A DNA stretch of 33,652 nucleotides, taken from NCBI GenBank assembly GCA_001819555.1, contig MHMZ01000012.1, positions 55,748 through 89,399 on the forward strand, in the 5' to 3' direction. Every line of letters begins with the position of its first letter. Positions within the stretch are counted from its first letter, which is position 1. Below are positions 477-33,437 of the stretch, piece after piece. The stretch comes from Candidatus Portnoybacteria bacterium RIFCSPHIGHO2_02_FULL_39_12. GTDB taxonomy: Bacteria; Patescibacteriota; Minisyncoccia; Portnoybacterales; UBA2143. The notes under the pieces were generated by a model, which was not told the DNA's origin, did not search any database, and saw nothing but the letters and a program-made list of their open reading frames with translations. A program made the translations under genes and the position numbers.

Positions 477-797
477 TTATCTTAAATATTTTATCCAACC
501 ATTAGCCATCTTGGAAATTTCCTGTAAATCCGATTCTAAGATAATATATTTTTTCCCAATAATATTCAATTCATAGGCGATTCTGATTAATCTTTTCAGA
601 ACTTCTATTTTTATTCGAGCTGAGTTTAAAATTGGCAATTTATTGTTTTTTGTTTCTAAAGAAGCGGTAATAACTAAATTTATTATCTCAAGACAAATAT
701 TTTCTATTTTTAGATAAATACCAAAACGGTCTTTTTTGGGTATTTTTGGGGATATTAAATAAATCTTTTTATAAAACTCACAAACTTTATGCGCCAA
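477..797 (-). CDS. avd: Avd-like (accessory variability determinant) four-helix-bundle protein; N-terminus probably extends to ATG at 849 if the adjacent G9 tract is one base shorter
   Basis: 106-aa protein ending ...LLIRIAYELNIIGKKYIILESDLQEISKMANGWIKYLR, helical, pattern similar to Avd/S23-like proteins in DGRs; lies between TR and DGR RT. The called start is TTG with no convincing N-terminus. Confidence 0.6.
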   Translation of the reverse strand: MAHKVCEFYKKIYLISPKIPKKDRFGIYLKIENICLEIINLVITASLETKNNKLPILNSARIKIEVLKRLIRIAYELNIIGKKYIILESDLQEISKMANGWIKYLR

Positions 798-1851
798 AGG
801 AATATTAAGCCCATCGGGGGGGGGCGTTAATAGTAAAAGAATTTGTCATAATGTTTTTAGCGAGATAATCTTACTTGATAATCTTTTTTCAGCCTGGCAG
901 GAATTCTGTCGGGGCAAAAAGAAAAGAATAGATGTCCAGCAATTTGAATTCAATCTTGAAGATAATCTGTTTCAGCTCCACCAAGAACTAAAAGCTAAAA
1001 CCTACCAACACTCTCATTATACTCCATTTTATATCCAAGACCCAAAATTAAGACGTATTCATAAAGCCAATATTTATGACCGCGTCTTACATCAGGCGAT
1101 TTTTAGGGTCTTATATCTAATTTTTGACAATGCCTTTATTTTTGATTCTTATTCCTGCCGATTAAATAAAGGAACGCATCGAGCAGTTAATAGATTAGAG
1201 AAGTTTGCCAGAAAATTAAGCAAAAATAACCACAAAAACATCTTTGCTTTAAAATGCGATATTAAAAAGTTTTTTGATTCGGTTGATCAAGAAATTTTAT
1301 TAGCGCTTATTAAAAAGAAAATTAAAGATAACAATACTCTTTGGCTTATTGAGAAAATTATTAAGAGTTTTAAGAAAGAGCGTAATAAAGGATTGCCGCT
1401 TGGCAATGTGACCAGCCAGTTATTTGCCAATATCTACTTAAATGAACTTGACCAATTTGTTAAGCGCAAATTAAAAATCAGGTATTACCTGCGTTATTGC
1501 GATGATTTCGTTATTTTGGGAGAAACTAAAGAGTATTTGTCAGAATTAGTCTATTTAATTGATAAATTTCTCAAGCAAAAATTGAAATTAACCCTTCATT
1601 CTGATAAGATAATTATGAAGAAATATCATCAGGGCATTGATTTTTTGGGTTATGTGGTTTTGCCGCATTACCGAGCATTAAGAATAAAAACCAAAAGAAG
1701 AATGTTTAAAAAAATTAAAAAGAAACATCAAGACTTAGAAGCTAATTTGATTTCTAAAAAATCTTTTAATCAGAGCTTACAATCTTACTTCGGAGTTTTA
1801 AAGCATTGCCAGGGGCATAAGATTAAGAAGAAAATAGAGGAAATTATTTAA
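775..1851 (+). CDS. DGR-type reverse transcriptase (start codon unresolved; frame open from 775)
   Basis: Continuous open frame 775-1851 by manual translation: ...KRICHNVFSEIILLDNLFSAWQEFCRGKKKRIDVQQFEFNLEDNLFQLHQELKAKTY...IHKANIYDRVLHQAIFRVLYLIFDNAFIFDSYSCRLNKGTHRAVNRLEKFARKL...ALKCDIKKFFDSVD...LPLGNVTSQLFANIYLNELDQFVKRKLKIRYYLRYCDDFVILGE. LGNxxSQ is the DGR RT hallmark and YCDD the catalytic box. The ORF track began at an internal TTG (1393). Confidence 0.9.
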   Translation, partial: NSQTLCAKGILSPSGGGVNSKRICHNVFSEIILLDNLFSAWQEFCRGKKKRIDVQQFEFNLEDNLFQLHQELKAKTYQHSHYTPFYIQDPKLRRIHKANIYDRVLHQAIFRVLYLIFDNAFIFDSYSCRLNKGTHRAVNRLEKFARKLSKNNHKNIFALKCDIKKFFDSVDQEILLALIKKKIKDNNTLWLIEKIIKSFKKERNKGLPLGNVTSQLFANIYLNELDQFVKRKLKIRYYLRYCDDFVILGETKEYLSELVYLIDKFLKQKLKLTLHSDKIIMKKYHQGIDFLGYVVLPHYRALRIKTKRRMFKKIKKKHQDLEANLISKKSFNQSLQSYFGVLKHCQGHKIKKKIEEII

Positions 1852-32450: not shown

Positions 32451-33437
32451 ATGAATAACGAAAAACTGAAAAAAGGAATAAATGAAATTTGTAATTTTCT
32501 TGAGTATAATCCCGGAATAATGGATTTAGAAAAGGCCTTTGAGGGGCGCAATTCTTATCAGCGGATATTTATCCGCAAGCGCGGCGGCAAGAAAAAAGGA
32601 AAACGGGTTATCCATGTCCCGCCGCCAAAATTAAAAAATGTTCAAAGCGTGATTCATAGGCGCGTTCTTGAAATGGTTGAATGGCCGGCGTCGGTCCATG
32701 GATTTGTAAAAAACAGGTCTCATCTGACTGCCGCCCTAAAGCATAGTCGTTCAATTCCTCCGCCTGTCGCGCTTTTGCTTATTGATTTCAAAGATGCATT
32801 TTCTAATGTAGGGGTTAAAAAAGTAGAGCGGGCTTTAGATAAAAGATTACAGCCCAATTTACTTTGTCCTTTAAGTCCCGGGGCCATAAAACTGCTGGCA
32901 AAACTTATTACCTATCGCGGCCGGCTGCCCCAGGGCGCTCCGTCTTCGCCTACGATTTTTAACCTTGTTGCTTTAGATTTAGACGAGGTGCTGTCTGTTT
33001 ATGCTGAAGAGCGTGGCTATACTTATACCCGTTATGTTGATAATATTGCGGTTTCCAGCCCAAAGCCGATTCCGAAAAACGAGCGCGCAGAAATAATTGG
33101 GTTATGCCGTCAATTTGGCTTTCAGGTAGTGTCTGAAAAGGCGCGGTATCAAGAAGCAAAATGGGGCGTATTAGAAATGACCAAGGTTCTTTTACAGCCA
33201 TACGGTGGACAAAAGTGGTACGCAAGCTATGGCCTCGGACTTTCTAACAGAAAATTTGTTGATAAAGTCCGGGCTATGGTTCACCGAGCCCAAAAAGACC
33301 CTTCAATTTCTCTTGCGAGCATTTGGGGAAAAATAGATTATGTCCGGTTGGTTGACCCGTATAAATTGTCCAGTCGGCTAAGTAAACCGATGCGTCAATT
33401 GCGTAGTATACAATCAAATTTAGAAAGGAGGAAATAA
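32451..33437 (+). CDS. retron-type reverse transcriptase with YVDN catalytic box
   Basis: VHGFVKNRSHLTAALKH (region X-like), LLLIDFKDAFSNV (motif A), GRLPQGAPSSPTIFNLVALDLD, YTYTRYVDNIAVSS, VLEMTKVLLQPYG (VTG-region equivalent). Confidence 0.85.
   Translation: MNNEKLKKGINEICNFLEYNPGIMDLEKAFEGRNSYQRIFIRKRGGKKKGKRVIHVPPPKLKNVQSVIHRRVLEMVEWPASVHGFVKNRSHLTAALKHSRSIPPPVALLLIDFKDAFSNVGVKKVERALDKRLQPNLLCPLSPGAIKLLAKLITYRGRLPQGAPSSPTIFNLVALDLDEVLSVYAEERGYTYTRYVDNIAVSSPKPIPKNERAEIIGLCRQFGFQVVSEKARYQEAKWGVLEMTKVLLQPYGGQKWYASYGLGLSNRKFVDKVRAMVHRAQKDPSISLASIWGKIDYVRLVDPYKLSSRLSKPMRQLRSIQSNLERRK

Follow-up and report, generated by a model that had tools for sequence, protein, structure and literature searches.

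The DGR cassette and its closed reading frame

How could a diversity-generating retroelement (DGR) have diversified its target gene when, as assembled, the frame of its reverse transcriptase (RT) is shut? The window, that is, the whole stretch of 33,652 nucleotides that was analysed, contains an RT open frame (RVT_1) at 775 to 1851 on the plus strand. It carries the DGR RT motifs LGNVTSQ and YCDD, the general form of the first, (I/V/L)GxxxSQ, being given in PMC3521204. On the minus strand lies avd (bAvd), an open frame at 477 to 797, which matches the Pfam bAvd family with 60.6 bits (cut-off 40, E 2.4e-16) and NCBIfam DivGenRetAVD with 56 bits, under the cut-off of 80 for the latter. The initial annotation had reported that the RT frame offers no ATG, GTG or TTG until the TTG at 1393, and that avd starts, as assembled, only from a TTG. 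Both statements are borne out by the sequence, in which the avd TTG lies at 797.

The template repeat (TR) was located at 305 to 430 on the plus strand. It matches at 84% a variable repeat (VR) found on another contig of the assembly (G000:C2:6311-6436, minus strand), at the 3' end of a 247-codon frame. Over the 126 nt, 18 of the 20 TR/VR mismatches fall at TR adenines, and up to position 419 this is true for 17 of 18. The locus therefore combines an RT with the DGR motif and YxDD, an Avd-type protein, adenine-specific TR/VR differences and a VR at the 3' end of its target, which are features by which a DGR is recognised. As TR/VR differences are almost confined to TR adenines, the cassette has been active in the past, despite the RT frame being shut in the assembly.

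Other features were observed around these elements. An inverted repeat with 14-nt arms and a 6-nt loop (427 to 460) lies just after the TR and before the 3' end of avd; it is a possible terminator or DGR hairpin. Directly downstream of the VR, a stretch of contig C2 (G000:C2:6146-6208, minus strand) matches the RT C-terminus (residues 320-340, 76%), and may be left over from a cassette that formerly adjoined the target gene. Directly to the left of window position 1, beside the TR, there is a run of Ns (L003 9861-10000). This scaffold gap could interrupt a nearer target gene (229-codon frame, L003 9320-10009). Finally, the window holds a second RT on the plus strand (32451 to 33437), closest to retron RTs (PADLOC RT_III-A, 4e-39) and under the cut-off of NCBIfam retron_St85. 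It has YVDN in place of the expected YxDD, so this protein is possibly altered in catalysis.

The G9 tract at the avd/RT junction

RT and avd are arranged head to head, with 5' ends that overlap in antisense. As first annotated, this overlap contains a G9 homopolymer at 816 to 824 (C9 on the avd strand), which we propose as a contingency tract. It is translated as Gly codons on the RT side and as Pro codons on the Avd side. No other G/C run of at least 7 is found in the window, and the entire 712-kb assembly (38 contigs) has three of at least 8; the remaining two, both G/C8, are in unrelated places on contigs C17 and C35.

The proposed RT start is an ATG at 789 to 791 on the plus strand, and the proposed avd start is an ATG at 847 to 849 on the minus strand, numbered 849 below. 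Each one is antisense to a CAT (His) codon of the opposite gene, and each comes into frame with its own gene only with one base fewer in the tract (modulo 3). Removal of one unit in silico connects ATG 789 to RT and ATG 849 to avd, leaving both genes open, exactly as had been claimed, while neither connection exists with G9 or G10. At G9, the product from ATG 789 is MRQRNIKPIGGGR (13 residues) and that from ATG 849 is MTNSFTINAPPRWA (14 residues). The OFF state of avd is less absolute here than that of RT, because the TTG start at 797 sits downstream of the tract.

The junction thus has a slippage-prone repeat of non-triplet unit in a coding 5' end, where a change of one unit opens or closes the frame in silico, as in contingency loci. 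Judging from the sequence, we consider it very probable that the G run acts as a phase-variation (contingency) tract which switches a DGR. A search of viral contigs with the exact flanks of this junction and another tract length gave no match, and the same search with the flanks of locus L322 returned only L322 itself.

Junction repeats in related loci

Searches for the RT in relatives, in a named genome collection, in the class and in the phylum, together with fetched regions, yielded 259 distinct RT 5' ends, of which 251, all in Patescibacteria, have avd in head-to-head orientation; in these the cores of both genes are mostly at most about 80 nt apart. The initial annotation had suggested comparing the tract with related genomes, and in that comparison a simple repeat is found in the avd/RT gap of 184 of the 251 distinct loci, although this is a biased prevalence, because the fetched loci are the best RT matches. 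All locus counts given here are also not independent of each other, since the loci are related.

Most of the 184 repeats are poly-G (151), mostly 8 to 12 long, with one poly-C. The other 32 comprise 18 (GA)n, 6 (GT)n, 3 (CT)n, 3 (CCTGT)n, one (ATTG)7 and one ATAG; this last, a 12-nt repeat in locus L069, was rejected as a tract, being at background level. The repeat units have sizes of 1, 2, 4 or 5, and never 3 or 6.

Such repeats are concentrated at the junction. There are 153 G/C runs of at least 7 in 22 kb of junction DNA and only 6 in 900 kb of flanks, a density about 1000 times higher, and 27 dinucleotide repeats against 11 in the same two sets. A chance origin of the junction repeats was rejected, by the flank density and by the comparison with shuffled flanks given below. 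Parsimony on a quick FastTree phylogeny of 247 RTs, which gives rough counts, requires the repeat type to have changed at least 41 times, the repeat to have been gained or lost at least 28 times, and the phase to have changed at least 68 times.

Differences in tract length were also seen, in comparisons that cover close relatives and paralogues of the same genome. Loci L016 and L150 have GA tracts of 13 and 17 nt in otherwise similar DNA, and the paralogue pairs L201/L206 and L121/L147 have G10/G12 and G10/G9. One genome (G572) has five DGR loci (L261, L274, L279, L284 and L289), whose separate (GA)n or (GT)n tracts stand in differing phases. The junction of L202 has a C9G9 palindrome, and L211, a relative with 86% identity, has just G9.

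As for mismatch repair, the MutS and MutL families were searched in the host genome (93% complete) with no match; each time, the control search was positive for 11 of 14 known genomes. Among 98 relatives only 3 gave a MutS match, all of family f21. Slippage may stay unrepaired in most of these 98 relatives' genomes.

Reading-frame phases across loci

For n-1, n and n+1 units of each tract, the frame was evaluated from ATG starts only, with Markov-shuffled flanks as the null. At least one phase opens avd in 182 of 184 loci (shuffled mean 91, maximum 109), and exactly one phase does so in 161 of 184 (shuffled mean 74, maximum 88). Of these 161 single-phase loci, 28 are assembled in the ON phase, 71 would open with one unit less and 62 with one unit more. 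The share of ON loci (28/161) is below one in three; the excess of OFF may come from selection, from the population majority or partly from consensus error.

Junctions that have no repeat behave differently, with in-frame ATGs for both avd and RT in 62 of 67 and with Ns in two of the five exceptions. Co-directional DGRs from viral contigs have neither a G/C run nor a dinucleotide repeat upstream of RT (0 of 53), and 52 of the 53 have an ordinary RT start. Among divergent DGRs from viral contigs, 1 of 11 has a tract, G11.

These numbers bear on the other option raised at the start, that the tract is really G8 and a sequencing or consensus error hides two constitutively open genes. Homopolymers are error-prone, and both genes do open at one base less. 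However, the tract is conserved, GA, GT, CT and CCTGT repeats substitute for it at the same place, and relatives are spread over three phases, so error would be required at about 83% of loci, while repeat-free junctions are nearly all in frame. We consider this explanation very improbable. As a general account it is argued against by the conservation of a slippage-prone repeat across Patescibacteria, although a consensus error at this single assembly could have occurred. The majority of cells here may also hold G8, which would leave the phase-variation reading unaffected. The contingency tract, which had been offered beside it, is supported by the conserved repeat, by units of 1, 2, 4 and 5, by the three phases and by a single shared open phase.

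A second alternative leaves the DNA unchanged. The RNA polymerase or the ribosome would slip on the G run in a programmed way, so that a fixed fraction of products is in frame. G runs of at least 9 are slippery, and many loci are out of frame, as this would have it. Programmed slippage nevertheless requires one fixed phase, and all three are common (28/71/62); moreover, four- and five-base repeats of 28 to 49 nt are unlikely slip sites for either enzyme. Its probability seems to us slightly smaller still than that of a consensus error.

Coupling of avd and RT

The repeat-bearing loci divide into two classes of 92. In class A there is no ATG between tract and RT, and both genes depend on the tract, whereas RT in class B has its own ATG on the downstream side of the tract, leaving avd as the one tract-dependent gene. 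The initial claim that one slip switches both DGR proteins is therefore correct here and at roughly half of the loci with a repeat (class A), and does not extend to class B, where avd alone is switched.

When each gene of a class A locus has one open phase, the phases of RT and avd agree in 50 of 50 cases (shuffled 32%); including loci with several open phases, both genes share one in 82 of 82. Over the first 137 loci with a repeat, an antisense CAT codon in the RT register faces 119 of 136 avd start codons, and 54 of 63 RT starts fall within the avd register. The phases agree because this geometry of start codons links both registers across the tract. The coupling follows partly from inherited start positions.

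The location of the tract between divergent genes, and in class B upstream of the RT ATG, could also suit a promoter-spacing switch, in which tract length alters the distance between divergent promoters. Spacing alone fails to explain why avd has an open ATG in exactly one phase at most loci, the agreement of RT and avd phases in 50 of 50 cases or the missing units that are multiples of 3. It is about as improbable, as the sole explanation, as programmed slippage. A spacing effect could be additional to the frame switch.

Most RT-OFF class A loci are cleanly closed, as 53 of 63 lack any ATG, GTG or TTG between tract and core. The picture for avd is less clean, and 67 of 143 avd-OFF loci have some start in that interval, including TTG 797 here. 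The idea that both genes use start codons lying downstream of the tract (GTG, TTG or others), so that the repeat is harmless, draws on the latter loci, and is the least credible explanation of all, given the former, a one-phase ATG beyond the tract far above chance, and repeats more enriched and more triplet-avoiding than harmless ones are expected to be.

A proposed phase-variable DGR

We propose that the frame switch works as follows. Each start lies beyond the tract, antisense to the CAT of the other gene, so avd and RT starts would connect with their genes only when the registers align, which one in three tract lengths allows. Slippage during replication would alter the tract length within a population, and would probably go uncorrected, since MutS and MutL were not found. 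RT and Avd would be made only in the open phase, so that a single lineage would have both ON or both OFF; at class B loci, slippage would switch Avd alone. Avd is reported as essential for retrohoming (PMC10053308), and therefore switching avd only could suffice. Most cells would be OFF and keep a stable target protein, with a few ON cells hypermutating the VR of the target.

More generally, we think it likely that these loci form an undescribed class of DGR, in which one tract in the antisense 5' overlap of avd and RT acts as frame switch for both genes. Targeted hypermutation would then be phase-variable across Patescibacteria and mostly OFF, with the tract type repeatedly replaced (poly-G, GA, GT, CT, CCTGT, ATTG).

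Comparison with known systems

Like the type DGR of Bordetella phage BPP-1 (avd-TR-RT), the cassette has an RT with the DGR motif, Avd, a TR and an adenine-altered VR. It differs in the head-to-head layout of avd and RT, whose 5' ends overlap and enclose a repeat tract, in having its target gene on a separate contig and in an RT frame that is shut as assembled. Roux et al. 2021 (PMC8144416) assign the DGRs of Patescibacteria to their clade 2; the terms frameshift, start codon and avd are absent from that text. No description of a DGR switched by slippage of a repeat tract was found in the literature searched, which was mostly outside subscription papers; a phase-variable DGR switch is likely, though not certainly, new to the literature. 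The natural regulation of DGR activity has been termed an open frontier (PMC12875486).

If true, the proposed switch would create diversification in two tiers, with slippage choosing the cells that hypermutate and the DGR then diversifying the target. It would also give a testable reason why Patescibacteria retain DGRs without constant scrambling of their target proteins. The state of a DGR could be read from ordinary sequencing reads, as the tract length modulo 3, and RT or avd genes that look truncated or startless in assemblies would be accounted for.

Among switches acting on two genes, TA repeats between the divergent hifA and hifB genes of Haemophilus influenzae switch both via promoter spacing. 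The likeness is in one repeat that switches two divergent genes; here it is the reading frame that fits the data.

Poly-G/C contingency loci in coding 5' ends are described in Neisseria, Campylobacter and Helicobacter (PMC6321876, PMC4965091), and are alike in their non-triplet repeat near the gene start, in having one open phase in three and in the mixed phases among genomes. Those loci mostly govern surface structures, whereas here the tract would govern a system that makes mutations, and a single tract sets two genes on opposite strands. Phasevarions, with phase-variable DNA methyltransferases (PMC7394358, PMC8125046), are alike in that what slippage turns on and off is not one surface protein but a system whose downstream effects are wider. 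The methyltransferase of a phasevarion alters expression, whereas the RT/Avd pair would alter the sequence of the target gene.
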